Positions 57,169 through 64,000 of a stretch of 64,000 bases of DNA are shown here, piece after piece. The position numbers were made by a program, and so were the translations under genes. Source of the stretch: Flaviramulus sp. BrNp1-15 (lineage in GTDB: Bacteria; Bacteroidota; Bacteroidia; Flavobacteriales; Flavobacteriaceae); NCBI RefSeq assembly GCF_022259695.1, contig NZ_CP092099.1, forward strand, positions 1,596,471 to 1,660,470. The letters are read 5' to 3'. The notes below the pieces were generated by a model. The model saw nothing but the letters and a program-made list of their open reading frames with translations. It was not told where the DNA came from and made no database searches. How positions within the stretch are numbered: the first letter of the stretch is position 1; every line of letters begins with the position of its first letter.

Positions 57169-58176
57169 ATGAAACAGTTATTAGTAACTTCTATGGCATG
57201 TGTGTGTATTATAGCTTCAAGCTATAGTCAAAATCTTGATAATAAACTAGTCAATAAAGATGCAAGTGTCGAAGCCATAGCCTTATATAATTACATTAAT
57301 AATCTTGGGGACAATATATTATCTGGACAGCATAGTTATAACGGAAATCCTGAACAATTTTATAATAAAGCATACAATATCACAGGTAAATATCCAGCGG
57401 TTTGGGGAACCGATTTTTATTGGAGTGGTGGTGAAGACCCAGGAAGTAGCGTAGTAGAGTCCACAAAAAAAATGCATAAAAAAGGCGCCATAATAACCTT
57501 AATGTGGCATGTTGGAAGACCAACAGATGATGCTCCTTATGGTTGGAAAGAAAGTGTTCAAAATAAAATATCTGATAGCGAATGGAAGGATTTAATAACT
57601 CCAGGAACAGAAATTCATAAGCGTTGGCTCAATCAAATAGATCATATAGCTGGTTATTTAAAACAATTGCAAGAGGCGAACATTCCTATTCTTTGGAGAC
57701 CGTATCATGAAATGAATGGTGTTTGGTTCTGGTGGGGAAATAAAAGAGGCGAACAAGGGTTTGCTAAACTTTGGCAAATGCTATTCGATCGCTATGTAAA
57801 TCATCATAAATTAAATAATTTGATTTGGGTTTGGAATGCTAATGCGCCAAGAGATATTCCACATGATGAAGGTTTTGAGTATCATCTATTTTATCCCGGG
57901 CATGATTATGTTGACATTTTAGCAACCGATGTGTATCATTTTGATTACGAGCAAAACGAATACGAACAATTATTAAAACTCGCTAATGGTAAACCTATTG
58001 CTTTAGGCGAAGTAGGGCAGTTACCAAAAACCAATATTTTAGATGAACAACCTAAGTGGTCTTGGTTTATGGTTTGGTCCAATTGGTTAGAAACCGCAAA
58101 TACAGAAGAGCGCGTAAAAAGCGTATACGAATATAAAAATACCCTAACACGAGATGAGATTCAAATTAAAAATTAG
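57169..58176 (+). CDS. Glycoside hydrolase family 26 (beta-mannanase-like)
   Basis: This 335-residue secreted enzyme has a signal peptide (to about residue 20) and a clan GH-A TIM barrel of GH26. The acid/base Glu is E181 in WRPYHEMNGVWFWWG and the nucleophile is E281 in ALGEVGQLP. These blocks are those of beta-1,4-mannanases, although some GH26 act on xylan or mixed-linkage glucan. Its stop overlaps the next start by 23 bp. Confidence 0.92.
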   Translation: MKQLLVTSMACVCIIASSYSQNLDNKLVNKDASVEAIALYNYINNLGDNILSGQHSYNGNPEQFYNKAYNITGKYPAVWGTDFYWSGGEDPGSSVVESTKKMHKKGAIITLMWHVGRPTDDAPYGWKESVQNKISDSEWKDLITPGTEIHKRWLNQIDHIAGYLKQLQEANIPILWRPYHEMNGVWFWWGNKRGEQGFAKLWQMLFDRYVNHHKLNNLIWVWNANAPRDIPHDEGFEYHLFYPGHDYVDILATDVYHFDYEQNEYEQLLKLANGKPIALGEVGQLPKTNILDEQPKWSWFMVWSNWLETANTEERVKSVYEYKNTLTRDEIQIKN

Positions 58177-60106
58177 TCAAATAGTAATTGTTTTAGTATT
58201 ATTTTTTTCTATTAATAATTTTGCCCAAACAGAATTTACAACTTGGGGAAATATCACTGGGATAAGAGTTGATAATCAACTTATGGAATTCAAATCTTAC
58301 TTAGTAGTTTTAGATACTTTGGGAGAAGAACGAGTGACGGAAAAAGAAGAGCAAAAAATTCTTTTTAAACGAATTGATGATAGCAAAGTTTTTAGTTACG
58401 AAATGGATAGCTTGCGTTGGAATCAATCCATTAAAACACCAGAAAAGGGTAAAGCAGAAATAGCTATTGATTTTTCTTCAAAGGTAGATACCATTATAAA
58501 AGGTGCGTATTTTAGGTTAAATTTACCTGAAGAGTTTGATGAAAACACAAAAATTAATTTTAAAAATTCGGGTAGTTTAAATGATAAGGAACTCCCAGAA
58601 ATAGCAAAACAATCTCCTTTTGTATTAAAAGCCAATAGTCTTAAAATTGAATCGGTAAAAAGGCAGTTGTATATTGAATTAAATGAAGAAACACCTGTAT
58701 TAATCAAACCAAGTAAAATTACAAAATCGGGTATAGAACTTACCTTTGTATTGGCTACCAAAAATATTGAAGCGAATAAAGTTTACAGAAATAATTTCAA
58801 CATTACAGCAACGGGAGACATTGATACAGAAGCTGTTGAATTAAAAGTTTTTCCAGAGCAAGAAGGAAAACCCTTTGATGGTATTGGAGGAAACTTCAGA
58901 TTGCAAAACCCAAATGCAGACCCGCAAGTCATTGAGTACTGTCTAGAAAATTTACGTGTTGCCTGGTCTAGAGTAGAAATGCCATGGCGCATGTGGCACC
59001 CAGATTTAGAAAAAAATCCAATTGAAGAAGCAAAAAAAGGAAATTTGCATCCTAAAGTAAAAGCGGCTATGGAAATGGCGCAACGTTTAGATAAAAAGGG
59101 AATCCCTGTAATTTTAGCCGCATGGCATGGTCCAGATTGGGCTATTATTGGAAAAAAAGCTAGAGGTGAAAATCCAGATGGAACCCGTGGCAATCCTTTA
59201 GATTTAGCAAAAAAGGAGGCTATTTATAAATCTATAACGGCTTATATCAAATACTTGAAAGATGAATTTGGGGTTGAAACCGTTATGTTTTCATTTAATG
59301 AAGCCGATTTGGGTATTGAAATTAGGCAAACCGCAGAAGAACACAACCAGTTTATAAAGGAAATGGGTAGTTATTTAGTGTCACAAGGATTAGATACTAA
59401 ATTCTTTCTTGGCGATACAGCTGATGCCAATGGTTGGGATTTTACAACTTTAGCTTCAACAGACCCCGAGACACAGCCTTACATTGGAGGAGTGTCGTTT
59501 CATTCATGGCGTGGTTACACCGATGAAAACCTTTTAAAATGGCGCGATATTGCTAATAGAGTCAATCAACCTTTATTTGTAGGTGAAGGTAGTATAGATG
59601 CTGGAGCATGGAGATATCCTCAAATTTTTGAAGAACCAACCTATGCTTTAGATGAAATAGATGCTTACATCAAAATACTGAATATGTCTCAACCTATAAC
59701 TATTTTGCAATGGCAATTAACATCAGATTATTCAGTGATGTCTGGAGGAGGTGTTTTTGGAAATACAGAAGAAGCATTGCATCCAACTCAACGTTTTTTT
59801 AACTTAAAGCAGTTGGGTGAAACACCAAAAGGCTTGTTTGCAATTCCTATTACAACATCTCATGATGCTATAACTTGTGCAGCTTTGGGTAATGTTTCAA
59901 CAGGTGACTATGTTATTCATTTAGTAAATAAAGGCGCAACAAGAATGGCGAATCTCACAGGGTTACCACTACATGTTGAATCTGTTGAGGTTTATGTGAC
60001 TAATATTGAAAAATCATATCAGAAAATCAAAACAATTCTAGTTAAGAATGGCGAACTTTCAGTTGAAATTGAAGGAGCAAGCTTTATTTCTTTATTTGCT
60101 AAATAG
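58154..60106 (+). CDS. Clan GH-A glycoside hydrolase, GH30-like
   Basis: This 650-residue secreted protein has a signal peptide (to about 25) and a beta-rich N-terminal part (about 26-235) without an assigned family. A (beta/alpha)8 domain (about 240-560) opens with FDGIGGNFRLQNP, like GH30. The catalytic pair is E383 in FSFNEADLG and E478 in LFVGEGSIDAGAW. A C-terminal beta domain (VSTGDYVIHLVNKG) completes the GH30 layout. I cannot fix the family. The overlap with GH26 suggests coupled translation and a shared target. Confidence 0.8.
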   Translation: MRFKLKISQIVIVLVLFFSINNFAQTEFTTWGNITGIRVDNQLMEFKSYLVVLDTLGEERVTEKEEQKILFKRIDDSKVFSYEMDSLRWNQSIKTPEKGKAEIAIDFSSKVDTIIKGAYFRLNLPEEFDENTKINFKNSGSLNDKELPEIAKQSPFVLKANSLKIESVKRQLYIELNEETPVLIKPSKITKSGIELTFVLATKNIEANKVYRNNFNITATGDIDTEAVELKVFPEQEGKPFDGIGGNFRLQNPNADPQVIEYCLENLRVAWSRVEMPWRMWHPDLEKNPIEEAKKGNLHPKVKAAMEMAQRLDKKGIPVILAAWHGPDWAIIGKKARGENPDGTRGNPLDLAKKEAIYKSITAYIKYLKDEFGVETVMFSFNEADLGIEIRQTAEEHNQFIKEMGSYLVSQGLDTKFFLGDTADANGWDFTTLASTDPETQPYIGGVSFHSWRGYTDENLLKWRDIANRVNQPLFVGEGSIDAGAWRYPQIFEEPTYALDEIDAYIKILNMSQPITILQWQLTSDYSVMSGGGVFGNTEEALHPTQRFFNLKQLGETPKGLFAIPITTSHDAITCAALGNVSTGDYVIHLVNKGATRMANLTGLPLHVESVEVYVTNIEKSYQKIKTILVKNGELSVEIEGASFISLFAK

Positions 60107-60146: not shown

Positions 60147-60182
60147 ATAGGTATTATCTTTGATATAATTAATTATACCTAT
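60147..60182 (+). promoter_or_regulatory. Promoter box flanked by an inverted repeat before the dikinase-like gene
   Basis: ATAGGTAT (60147-60154) and ATACCTAT (60175-60182) are 8-bp inverted arms that surround an exact -7 box TATCTTTG (60155-60162). Repressor binding here would block transcription. Confidence 0.45.
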
Positions 60183-60191
60183 AATCTATAA

Positions 60192-63092
60192 ATGAAAAAG
60201 TTAGTTTTACTTGTTTTTGTATGTTTTATTACAAATAGTTTTTCTCAAAAAATAAGTGATGAACAAATTGCTTCTCTAATAAGCCAATACAAAAAGGATG
60301 TTCGCGGTCCATACAAAGATATCCGTTGGTTTTGTACAGATGGAAGCATTAGACAACCAAAAGACCCATGTCCAGATAATATAGGTCCAGGAGTGCAACA
60401 TGCACGTTATAAAGATGAGGTTGTGGCATTAGCCAAAACCAATCAAATTTATTTAGGACAGATTTTGGCTTATACTGATAAAGACGAATTTTGGGATGCT
60501 AAAAACAATCATTCGAGGTTAAAACAATACCAATTAGATAAATATTTAAGAGGTGTTGATAATGGTTGGATTAATGAAAAGGGGCAGTATTACAGAGGTG
60601 CTATTCAATCTGAAGATGAAGAAGCTTGGGGTATCGATTTTTACAAATGGGTATTAGCTGATGATGCTAATATTGAAAAAAACTACTTTTTAATTCGTCA
60701 GTCATTAAAAGATATTCCTCACAATGGCGATGATAATTTATCTCAGCTTATTCGTAGCCAATCTAAAGTGATTTCAGATGAATTTATTCAGTTTATGGAT
60801 TTGCGTGTAAAAATTCATAGTCAACCAGAGTATAATGATATTTCTAAAGTAAAAGCATTTAAAGAAAAATTTAGTTCGAAATTATCGAATTCTCAATCAC
60901 AGAAACTGGATGAACTAATAGCAACTATGGCTAAGTTTTATAAACCAATAGACATTAAAACGTTGGTAAATAAAACGACACTGTTTAAAAACACTGAAAT
61001 TGCTGAAAAAATTAATAGTTACATTTCAAGCAATTCGTCAGAAACGTCTGCAGAGATATTAATCCCAGAAACAGCGCAATTATTGATGGATTTAAGAACC
61101 TCTCTTATAGATGTAAAAAAACCTCTAGCACGTTTGCAACTTTTGGATGTTTCTTTAAAATTAGAAGAAATTATTTTTAAAACGGCACAACAATGGGAAC
61201 CGAATAATTTACAAGAAATGCTTAATAAAATATGTTATTTAGGAATGGCGACTGCTGGTTCTGGGTACATAGAAATGTATGAATGGAATGAGTTAAGTTT
61301 AAAAGCACCATTTCCTGATGAAAATAGTATGACGTTAGACGAACTAACAAATGTTTTAGAAAACGGACGAAGTTTAGTAGAGTGGAGTTCTTCTATGGTG
61401 AAAGCTAATTATCAAAACATTGTTGATGTTTATACCAATTTCGAGCCTAAAACATATGGCTTTATTGATGATAAAATAAGAGGCTCTGTGGCTTTGTATT
61501 TGGGAGAAAGTGTTGGGAAGTTAGGTGATTTTATTGCCTTAGAATCTGCCTTAACAAATAAGGTGCTTGATATTGCTAACCAAAGTTCATTTAGAGGGTT
61601 AAATCCTGGGTATGCTTTTGGCGAATTGGTTGTTGTTGATGGTTCGCCTGATGCCATTGAAGTGAATTCAAACAATATTTATATTTTTCAGCGTCCTCCA
61701 GCCGATTTAAAACCTGTTGCAGGTATCGCTACAGTTTCTGAAGGTAATATGGTATCTCATGTACAGTTATTGGCCAGAAATTTAGGTATTCCAAATGCAG
61801 CGTTATCTGACAGTAATTTGAAAAGTTTAATAAAGTATCATGGACAAAAGGTGTTTTATGCGGTTTCAAATAAAGGAAATATTATCATGAAACTAGAGAA
61901 AGATATGATAGAGGCTGAACGTTCACTTTTTATAAAAAAGGAACGTAATGAAGAGAAAATTGAAGTACCAGTTGAAAACATATTGTTAGATGAAACCAAT
62001 ATTTTAAACTTGCGAAGTGTTGATGCTAGCGATTCTGGTAAACTTTGTGGCCCTAAAGCAGCTAATTTAGGACAATTAAAAAAGATGTTTCCAGAGCAAG
62101 TTGTAGAAGGTTTAGTTATTCCATTTGGGATTTTTAGAGCGCATATGGATTTGCCAATGCCAAATCAAGAGGTATCTTATTGGATGTTTTTAAACAATAT
62201 GTTTAAAGAAGCAGAACGTATGCGTTCTCAAGGAATAGTAGAAGCAGAAGTTGAAGATTATCAATTAAAACAACTTGATATACTTAGAAAGGCTATTAAA
62301 CAAATGGCTTTAAATCCTACGTTTGTTAATCAACTAGAAAAAGACTTTACATCTATTTTAGGAGCAAATTTGGGTGATATTCCCGTATTTTTAAGAAGTG
62401 ATACCAATATGGAAGACCTTAAAGACTTTACAGGAGCTGGACTAAACCTAACGTTATTTAATGTTTTAGATAAAAATAAAATTATTCAAGGAATTAAAGA
62501 TGTTTGGGCATCACCATATACCGAGCGTAGTTTTAAATGGCGTCAAAAATATTTATTAAATCCAGAAAATGTATTTCCTTCTATTTTAGTTATTCCTAGT
62601 GTAGATGTAGATTATTCTGGTGTACTTATTACAAAAGGTATAAGTAACGGGAATGAAAATGACTTAACAGTTGCTTTTAGTAGAGGAGCAGGAGGTGCAG
62701 TTGATGGGCAATCGGCAGAAACCTATCTAATAAAAATAAATGGTGGACAACGATTTTTAGCACCTGCAAGAGAGCAATATTATAACAGTTTGCCAATTAC
62801 TGGTGGAACAGAAAAGAAATTAGCCACGTTTGAAACTTCAGTTTTAAATCAGCAAAACATAAATGAAATTCGTAATCTGGCAAAAACCATTAGGGAAACA
62901 CTTCCAAAAGAAACACATTCCGATTATGAAGGAGCATATGATGTGGAGCTTGGATTTAAAAACAACAAACTATGGCTATTTCAAATACGTCCGTTTGTAG
63001 AAAATAAAAAGGCATTAAGTTCAGATTATTTAGAATCTATAACGCCTATAATTGATAAAAATAAAGTGATTTCGCTTTCAGAAAAACTATAA
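60192..63092 (+). CDS. Exported PEP/pyruvate-binding (PPDK-N) protein, glucan-water-dikinase-like order
   Basis: This 966-residue protein begins with a signal peptide (to about 18) and a long helical N-terminal part (about 20-470). A swivelling phosphohistidine-like domain follows (about 470-590), with VSEGNMVSHVQLLARNLGIPNA (H523 in the SH position). The C-terminal ATP-grasp PPDK_N domain (about 612-950) shows CGPKAANLG, FLRSDTNMEDLKDFTGAGL, SRGAGGAVDGQSAET and VELGFKNNKLWLFQIRPF. His domain before ATP-binding domain is the order of alpha-glucan water dikinase, not of PEP synthase, and no PEP-binding TIM barrel is present. The motifs look intact, although the protein appears exported. A serine hydrolase follows 4 bp later. 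Confidence 0.82.
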   Translation: MKKLVLLVFVCFITNSFSQKISDEQIASLISQYKKDVRGPYKDIRWFCTDGSIRQPKDPCPDNIGPGVQHARYKDEVVALAKTNQIYLGQILAYTDKDEFWDAKNNHSRLKQYQLDKYLRGVDNGWINEKGQYYRGAIQSEDEEAWGIDFYKWVLADDANIEKNYFLIRQSLKDIPHNGDDNLSQLIRSQSKVISDEFIQFMDLRVKIHSQPEYNDISKVKAFKEKFSSKLSNSQSQKLDELIATMAKFYKPIDIKTLVNKTTLFKNTEIAEKINSYISSNSSETSAEILIPETAQLLMDLRTSLIDVKKPLARLQLLDVSLKLEEIIFKTAQQWEPNNLQEMLNKICYLGMATAGSGYIEMYEWNELSLKAPFPDENSMTLDELTNVLENGRSLVEWSSSMVKANYQNIVDVYTNFEPKTYGFIDDKIRGSVALYLGESVGKLGDFIALESALTNKVLDIANQSSFRGLNPGYAFGELVVVDGSPDAIEVNSNNIYIFQRPPADLKPVAGIATVSEGNMVSHVQLLARNLGIPNAALSDSNLKSLIKYHGQKVFYAVSNKGNIIMKLEKDMIEAERSLFIKKERNEEKIEVPVENILLDETNILNLRSVDASDSGKLCGPKAANLGQLKKMFPEQVVEGLVIPFGIFRAHMDLPMPNQEVSYWMFLNNMFKEAERMRSQGIVEAEVEDYQLKQLDILRKAIKQMALNPTFVNQLEKDFTSILGANLGDIPVFLRSDTNMEDLKDFTGAGLNLTLFNVLDKNKIIQGIKDVWASPYTERSFKWRQKYLLNPENVFPSILVIPSVDVDYSGVLITKGISNGNENDLTVAFSRGAGGAVDGQSAETYLIKINGGQRFLAPAREQYYNSLPITGGTEKKLATFETSVLNQQNINEIRNLAKTIRETLPKETHSDYEGAYDVELGFKNNKLWLFQIRPFVENKKALSSDYLESITPIIDKNKVISLSEKL

Positions 63093-63096
63093 AAAA

Positions 63097-64000
63097 ATGA
63101 AAAAATATATTTTAATTTTTGGTGTTATATTCATTTGTTCATCATTCACAGTGTTAACATTTTACCCTATAGATGGTTATGAACATACAGGAATAAAACG
63201 TTTAAAACGCTTAGAACTTATTAAAAGTGGTGAGCTTGTTGAGACTTCAAAATTACCTGCTGGAGCAATGAAGTCTTATCTTGATATTAAGTTAAACTTA
63301 CTTCCCAAAAAGAATGACAGTGTACAATGCTATTTAAAAGTAAATGAGGATTTTCAGAAAGAAATTAATGGTTTGTTTAGAGGTTTGGATAAAAGTTATT
63401 CGTTAGCAGTTTTAGATATTTCAGATATTAATCATGTGCGTTATGCACAGCGTAATGAAACGGCAGGCTATCAACCAGGAAGTGTTGGAAAAATAGCCGT
63501 ATTACTTGGTTTATTTAATCAATTAGCTAAGATTTATCCAGATGATTTTGAAAAGCGTTTAGATGTACTACGAAACAAATCTGTAAAAGCAGGTGTTTGG
63601 GGGTTAACCGACGAACATACTATTCCTATTTACAATATTGAAACTAAAAAATTAGTGAAGCGCCAAGTAATTGCAAGTGATGTGTTTACGCTTTTTGAAT
63701 GGGCAGACCATATGTTGTCTGTAAGCAATAACGGTGCCGCAAGTATTGTTTGGAGAGAGGTTTTACTAATGCAAGCTTTTGGTGAAAAATACCCGGAATT
63801 AACACCTGAGGAAGCTGATATTTATTTTAAAACAACACCAAAAAAAGAATTAACCGATTTAGGAAATGATGTGGTTAATTTGCCATTACGTGATTTAGGA
63901 ATAACACATGATGAGTGGCGCCTGGGTAGTTTTTTTACTAGAGGCGCTAATACTTATGTAGGAGATAAGGGTGGCAGTATAGGAACGACTCTTGGTTTAA
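63097..64000 (+). CDS. Serine hydrolase, beta-lactamase/PBP-like (partial, runs off the window end)
   Basis: The frame stays open from ATG 63097 to the last base, giving 301 codons. It has an N-terminal signal sequence (to about 22) and a serine-acylase-type SxxK motif SVGK (S129, K132) in YQPGSVGKIAVLLGLFN. A candidate SxN-like motif lies in SVSNNGAAS (about 208-216). This is the class A beta-lactamase/penicillin-binding fold. A KTG motif would lie further on, outside or at the end of the window. It follows the exported dikinase-like gene by 4 bp, a pairing that suggests a joint role at the envelope. Confidence 0.8.
   Translation, partial: MKKYILIFGVIFICSSFTVLTFYPIDGYEHTGIKRLKRLELIKSGELVETSKLPAGAMKSYLDIKLNLLPKKNDSVQCYLKVNEDFQKEINGLFRGLDKSYSLAVLDISDINHVRYAQRNETAGYQPGSVGKIAVLLGLFNQLAKIYPDDFEKRLDVLRNKSVKAGVWGLTDEHTIPIYNIETKKLVKRQVIASDVFTLFEWADHMLSVSNNGAASIVWREVLLMQAFGEKYPELTPEEADIYFKTTPKKELTDLGNDVVNLPLRDLGITHDEWRLGSFFTRGANTYVGDKGGSIGTTLGL

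Follow-up and report, generated by a model that had tools for sequence, protein, structure and literature searches.

Enzymes of the superfamily that comprises pyruvate phosphate dikinase (PPDK), phosphoenolpyruvate (PEP) synthase, and rifampin phosphotransferase use an ATP domain to charge a histidine on a swivelling domain, from which the phosphate is handed on at an acceptor site. The PPDK-type members usually reside in the cytosol; rifampin phosphotransferase has the ATP domain first and the His domain last, and the N-terminal domains of alpha-glucan, water dikinase (GWD) are starch-binding carbohydrate-binding domains (CBM). ATP-dependent periplasmic reactions do exist in bacteria, and ADP/ATP transporters are commonly denied outside intracellular parasites, according to excerpts of a 2014 Biology Direct paper (PMC4289276). 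Excerpts of Major et al. (2017, PMC5381601) describe the characterized NTTs of intracellular bacteria as taking in energy and nucleotides, and the proteins of the NTT-HEAT branch as widespread in bacteria, free-living ones included, and functionally uncharacterized, with the speculation that they transfer ATP across thylakoids or between cyanobacterial cells; cargo differs among characterized NTTs (excerpts of PMC6995639). Here we describe a locus at the end of a 64,000-nucleotide stretch of Flaviramulus sp. BrNp1-15 (contig NZ_CP092099.1, positions 1,596,471 to 1,660,470, forward strand; "the window" hereafter), in which the gene for an apparently exported dikinase-like protein is followed by a serine hydrolase gene (SH1) and, past the window edge, by genes for an NTT-HEAT ATP/ADP translocase and a second serine hydrolase (SH2). 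We propose, with a probability of roughly 0.58, that these four genes form an envelope system in which periplasmic phosphotransfer is fed with ATP by NTT-HEAT.

Each of the component families is known. With the superfamily above (PF01326 and PF00391) the dikinase has in common an ATP domain and a catalytic His domain; it differs from PEP synthase and PPDK in its predicted export, in the position of the His domain before the ATP domain, in having no barrel by Pfam, and in an N-terminal domain without a Pfam family, and from rifampin phosphotransferase in having the ATP domain last rather than first (residues 1-315 in structure 5hv1). The order of a His domain and then a C-terminal ATP domain is shared with GWD, but the dikinase has no detected CBM, appears to be exported, and has serine hydrolases and an ATP/ADP carrier as linked neighbors. 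With the NTT-HEAT branch as described in excerpts of PMC5381601, the translocase shares the fusion of a TLC domain to HEAT repeats at the C terminus and, judging from a relative's model, the AtNTT1 fold; here, unlike there, it is tied by linkage and co-occurrence to a putatively exported ATP-type enzyme, and the speculation in those excerpts does not extend to periplasmic enzymes as users of the ATP. SH1 and SH2 have the SxxK, SxN, and KSG motifs of known Beta-lactamase2 serine hydrolases (PF13354), but here two distinct genes of the kind accompany the dikinase in 13/13 genomes. No paper joining NTT-HEAT to an exported dikinase or a serine hydrolase was among the matches listed in a search of open-access literature, outside which most subscription papers fall; within those limits the module of four genes is undescribed. 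An earlier note on the window, made from its letters, knew of no described system of the dikinase and serine hydrolase kind.

Dikinase-like protein

The dikinase-like protein (966 amino acids [aa]) is encoded by an open reading frame on the plus strand at 60192-63092. Homologous loci number 52: 13, including the window's, came from a sample of 395 genomes and a further 39 from a genome-collection search. By their titles the latter are almost all Flavobacteriaceae, and two are metagenome-assembled genomes labelled Saprospiraceae and Lewinellaceae. Residues were tallied over 51 full-length sequences, the window's own included; the sequence at a contig end (L066) was excluded. The earlier note had assigned the protein a signal peptide, and the sequences bear this out: by a lenient home-made Q-rule heuristic, the N terminus has a hydrophobic core and then, ahead of a Gln, a site resembling those cut by signal peptidase in 51/51, with positive charge ahead of the core in 50/51 (the exception, L082, is an over-long start call) and the Gln aligned exactly at position 19 in 47/51. 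In the window's protein the putative signal peptide covers residues 1-18 (60192-60245, plus strand), with a predicted cut before Q19. Such conservation fits the Bacteroidetes Q-rule, under which Gln follows the cleavage site of exported proteins, a pattern predicted at a mean of 71 percent across species (excerpts of PMC5837995).

Three domains follow on the same strand. The N-terminal domain (residues 20-460; 60249-61571) is mostly helical and presumably binds the substrate; it is rich in invariant residues, including a WFC...C motif whose cysteines, C48 and C60, are each kept in 51/51 sequences, and Pfam, searched up to E 1, assigns it to no family. Next comes the swivelling phosphohistidine domain, at about residues 469-570 (61596-61901). 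Its Pfam match to PEP-utilizers is weak (residues 506-534, E 0.02, under the cut-off), but in a family profile of 34 relatives residues 471-549, S522-H523 among them, align to the His domain of a PEP synthase, 8a8e (domain score 15.5, i-Evalue 0.025). The SH motif singled out in the earlier note holds up, and H523 (codon 61758-61760), the predicted phosphohistidine, falls on the His motif of PEP synthase. The PPDK_N ATP-binding domain (about residues 600-940; 61989-63011) is the last domain, and here too the earlier note, which had recognized a full ATP-grasp domain, was right: PPDK_N lies over the Pfam cut-off at residues 619-943 (E 7.6e-23, 81.7 bits against 27), and with the same profile residues 695-945 fall on the ATP domain of 8a8e (domain i-Evalue 1.2e-19). 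A predicted model (mean predicted local distance difference test score 77.4, with residues 504-533, which contain H523, at low confidence) has its fold match in rifampin phosphotransferase (5hv1), over the ATP domain at residues 1-315 of that structure, with Z 21.1 and a root mean square deviation (rmsd) of 3.2 over 309 aligned residues; high-scoring Foldseek and VIA-align matches were confined to residues 600-949, and the N-terminal domain was barely covered. Pfam and profile alignment together place the His domain before the ATP domain, the GWD-like order that had been reported, and Pfam up to E 1 detected neither a PEP/pyruvate barrel nor a CBM in the protein.

The normally cytosolic location of PPDK-type enzymes invites the view that an exported relative is a pseudo-enzyme or binding protein, one of the options raised in the earlier note. 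S522, H523, K622, R735, E741, D742, D917, E919, and Q931 are, however, each present in 51/51 dikinases. Because H523, the export site, and all ATP-site residues checked are invariant, we reject this option as very improbable; on sequence grounds the dikinase looks exported, with its ATP site intact.

Gene linkage and co-occurrence

The dikinase has a constant set of neighbors. SH1 accompanies it in 48 of the 52 loci, NTT-HEAT in 47, and SH2 in 48, and the neighbors that rank next occur in 12. SH1 lies directly after the dikinase in 48/52 loci, so the linkage with a serine hydrolase seen in the window extends to the homologues, and the gap between the two genes is -23 to +23 bases in 47/48 loci and 89 in one, the negative values being perhaps errors in start calls. 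Gene calls at these loci follow a longest-open-reading-frame heuristic, which missed SH1 at L081; a genome search recovered it adjoining the dikinase. The departures from the common arrangement are few. A contig edge cuts the dikinase locus at L066, NTT and SH2 lie some 8 kb farther along at L057, and the stretch ends before SH2 at L077; in L062 (Mangrovimonas), SH1 lies away from the dikinase and is convergent with a second NTT-HEAT gene (G396:C24:682313-686430); at L079 the four genes are scattered, and L081 and L082 are without a matching NTT. Pairwise distances over 45 loci correlate at 0.956 between dikinase and SH1 and at 0.84 between dikinase and NTT.

The same association is seen across the sample of 395 whole genomes of the phylum, in a search that scored only the top candidates of a first pass. 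Any dikinase match was present in 63/395 genomes and a full-length one in 13 (753 to 2168 bits); the remaining 50 had no match better than 61 bits, and their best matches covered part of the protein only. Full-length dikinase, SH1, and SH2 occur in the identical 13/395 genomes, which by their taxonomic labels span six families and twelve genera, and NTT-HEAT above 478 bits was found in 11 of these 13 and in 0/382 others, the best of which scored 317.5 bits (G340). With the genomes treated as independent, Fisher p is about 1e-24 for the dikinase with SH1 and SH2 and about 1e-19 for the dikinase with NTT-HEAT. Any NTT match at 1e-10 was present in 13/13 dikinase genomes and 28/382 others (Fisher p 2e-14). 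Dikinase, SH1, and SH2 are also absent together from genus-mates of two carriers, namely G195, G328, and G344 (of G199) and G081, G151, G250, and G286 (of G227). In G178 the dikinase, SH1, NTT, and SH2 genes are dispersed over four unlinked sites, with SH2 on a separate contig, and all are retained; local gene order therefore cannot explain the co-occurrence. In a tree of 45 NTTs, with long branches, the 22 linked ones, which were hand-picked, form one side of a branch with support of 89/91, recovered in 86 percent of 200 bootstrap trees. The family alignments held 34 (A1) and 30 (A2) of the available sequences. A chance presence of NTT-HEAT beside the dikinase is rejected by linkage in 47/52 loci together with co-occurrence in 11/13 against 0/382 genomes.

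A TerC-family membrane protein is encoded in 5/52 loci, between SH1 and NTT in L031, L032, L038, and L050 and upstream of the dikinase in L077 (Pfam E 1.7e-53 in L031, the sole member scanned). TerC proteins are linked to metal supply for exported enzymes, and such a neighbor would suit a metal-dependent exported dikinase.

NTT-HEAT translocase

The NTT-HEAT gene (943 aa; L070:5814-8645, minus strand) lies 343 to 3174 bases past the window edge; it is convergent with SH1, the two ends overlapping by 14 bases, and SH2 comes next. Its product has a Pfam TLC domain (E 8e-9, 35.2 bits against a cut-off of 21) and C-terminal HEAT repeats (HEAT_2, E 4.5e-14), and the family profile retrieves Arabidopsis NTT1 (AtNTT1) at E 2.1e-11 and Chlamydia NTT1 at E 8.3e-6 in addition to HEAT-repeat matches; the protein is thereby a relative of the ATP/ADP exchangers found in chloroplasts. 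Structure comparison rests on a model (942 residues) of the NTT-HEAT protein of a relative, L031, rather than the window genome's own copy: this model matches ADP/Pi-bound AtNTT1 (9j3m) with Z 41.0 and rmsd 2.9 over 412 aligned residues, ATP-bound AtNTT1 with Z 36.7, and other NTT entries with Z 31.4, 28.1, and 27.5. The best transporter outside the NTT family reached Z 28.5, and a plain major facilitator superfamily transporter is rejected by this comparison with the Z of 41.0 to AtNTT1. The TLC protein past the window edge is, by sequence and by the relative's model, an NTT of the NTT-HEAT branch, with predicted ATP/ADP transport.

Proposed mechanism

Gene order and co-occurrence bind the carrier to the gene set, and NTT-HEAT is for this reason the natural candidate for supplying ATP to the dikinase. 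An NTT-HEAT carrier in the inner membrane would swap cytosolic ATP for spent nucleotide and so deliver ATP to the periplasm; the exported dikinase would bind this ATP via its C-terminal domain and phosphorylate H523 on the swivelling domain, and, if the chemistry is that of the PPDK/PEP synthase superfamily, the phosphate would pass from H523 to a substrate bound in the N-terminal domain. SH1 and SH2, as their co-occurrence with the dikinase suggests, may act by cleavage or transacylation on this envelope substrate or on the product formed from it; that the substrate is an envelope component is a guess. An enzyme working outside with ATP from elsewhere and action of the pair on an envelope polymer were among the possibilities considered in the earlier note, which had rightly seen a paradox over ATP. 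Both stay plausible, and the "elsewhere" acquires a candidate in NTT-HEAT, past the window edge. If true, such an ATP-fed four-gene system would reveal an envelope reaction new to science. With an ATP/ADP carrier encoded beside an apparently exported ATP-type enzyme whose active site is intact, the questions of periplasmic ATP and of NTT-HEAT function become directly testable in cultured flavobacteria.

Several observations weigh against this proposal. The NTT gene is convergent and hence not in the dikinase operon. A dikinase would release AMP, which an ATP/ADP exchanger need not carry; either the carrier would have to return the AMP or another enzyme would have to deal with it. In two distant genomes, G183 and G199, the genes for dikinase, SH1, and SH2 are adjacent but the matching NTT clade is missing; the NTT-family proteins of these genomes (82 bits in G183, 322 bits in G199) are of another clade and unlinked. 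PPDK_N paralogues that appear exported (signal peptides judged by eye) occur as proteins of 625-631 aa in G206, G222, G316, G170, and G017 and of about 830 aa in G045; no NTT match at 1e-10 was found in these six genomes, and none in the stretches fetched, so an exported enzyme of PPDK_N fold does not require an NTT-HEAT carrier. Neither dikinase, SH1, nor SH2 was found at E 1e-3 in 20 stretches around other NTT genes; of the 19 genomes from which these were taken, two, G183 and G199, carry the dikinase at a different place.

Alternatively, dikinase, SH1, and SH2 might be the functional unit, with NTT-HEAT serving other cargo or regulation and the enzyme obtaining ATP by leakage or lysis, or using another phosphodonor. 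The three adjacent genes in G183 and G199 and the paralogues with no detected NTT favor that explanation, as does the variation in cargo among characterized NTTs (excerpts of PMC6995639). It accounts poorly for the confinement of the matching NTT-HEAT to dikinase genomes (11/13 against 0/382) and for its retention when the genes are scattered, as in G178, and the closest structural match of the L031 model is a nucleotide-bound ATP/ADP NTT; we regard it as unlikely, though worth keeping in mind. The transport could also run inward, the dikinase working in reverse to make periplasmic ATP from AMP and a phosphorylated compound of the envelope or the environment, and NTT-HEAT importing that ATP or scavenged nucleotides. 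PPDK-type enzymes are reversible, which counts for this idea, whereas free-living flavobacteria produce their own ATP, which counts against it, and beyond the four genes no conserved neighbor in the 52 loci hints at a phosphorylated donor. The data are compatible with either direction of transport, and the characterized NTTs of intracellular bacteria are importers of energy and nucleotides (excerpts of PMC5381601); even so, inward running seems improbable to us. Supply of ATP to the dikinase by NTT-HEAT is the best, not the only, reading.

Serine hydrolases

SH1 (419 aa in all; plus strand) starts at 63097, 4 nucleotides after the dikinase stop, as the earlier note had observed of a serine hydrolase with an SVGK motif; the window edge cuts the gene (63097-64000), and its stop lies 356 bases past that edge. 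SH2 (308 aa; L070:8781-9707, minus strand) lies 3310 to 4236 bases past the edge. Both are over the Pfam cut-off of 22 bits for Beta-lactamase2 (PF13354), SH1 with 29.2 bits (E 7.2e-07) and SH2 with 72.7 bits (E 3.5e-20). NCBIfam beta-lactamase models gave no match over cut-off for either hydrolase, bla_class_A falling far below. Since the motifs S129xxK132, S210xN212, and K349SG of SH1 are kept in 48/48 sequences and S95LPK98, S131xN133, and K247SG of SH2 in 50/50, both proteins look catalytic. Judged by eye, the N terminus of SH1 is export-like or an anchor segment, and that of SH2 is export-like. Two Lutibacter loci carry a tandem duplication of SH2 (L049:13130-14902 and L056:13138-14903).

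Upstream genes

The earlier note had placed the dikinase and SH1 downstream of glycoside hydrolase (GH) genes of GH9, GH26, and GH30-like type. Pfam confirms the GH9 and GH26 genes upstream of the dikinase in the window; the GH30-like label was not borne out, as neither Pfam, up to E 1, nor a sequence search of PDB, up to E 0.1, gave a match for the gene concerned (650 aa; 58154-60106). This 650-aa gene recurs in 2/52 dikinase loci, its own included (the GH9 and GH26 families were not searched in the other loci), and on that count a functional tie between the dikinase and the upstream glycoside hydrolases is rejected; the latter look incidental. The GWD-like domain order and the GH9 and GH26 genes would otherwise have suggested an extracellular glucan, water dikinase acting on the glycans that these hydrolases degrade. 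With the 650-aa member of the cluster in so few loci and no carbohydrate-binding domain by Pfam, we find this scarcely credible, and glucan as the substrate of the dikinase is not supported.

Paralogues and other NTT loci

The short PPDK_N paralogues adjoin a DUF4956-type membrane protein in 5/5 cases; Pfam was run on one paralogue (PPDK_N, E 3e-32) and on one neighbor (DUF4956, E 2e-19). These proteins of 625-631 aa, at L148, L149, L151, L152, and L153 (and at L016 and L018), have, by eye, the His-then-ATP order. Another PPDK_N-like protein that appears exported, at L021 (a frame of 838 residues) and L150, ends in a motif that resembles a type IX secretion tail, which suggests secretion to the cell surface.

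Around other NTT genes a different neighbor recurs. A protein of 558-656 aa, here called c1, lies beside the NTT gene in 10 of 11 stretches (L128-L138, with none in L135): in 8 it is no more than one gene from a full NTT-HEAT gene, and in 2 (L128 and L134) it stands beside a shorter NTT frame. The NTT partners belong to a sister NTT-HEAT clade. By eye, c1 is lipoprotein-like, with an invariant Cys after the signal, and kinase-like, with DRR...N and D[MF]G motifs. Pfam, however, matched HipA_2 weakly and in only 2/10 members (best E 0.028) and HipA_C in 2/10 (best E 0.079), single-sequence and profile searches of PDB returned no kinase and no match, and NCBIfam none for the one member searched. 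The sister NTT-HEAT/c1 clade is a possible second ATP-fed periplasmic system. The wider proposition that free-living bacteria export ATP to the periplasm via NTT-HEAT for phosphotransfer, with dikinase-SH1-SH2 as one consumer and the sister clade with c1 as a second, independent case, is tentative, and we rate it somewhat short of even odds; should c1 turn out to be a kinase, the supply of periplasmic ATP by NTT-HEAT would be a general principle. A second conserved neighbor accompanies c1 in 8/10 stretches; the single member scanned is Omp85-like (E 8.1e-15).

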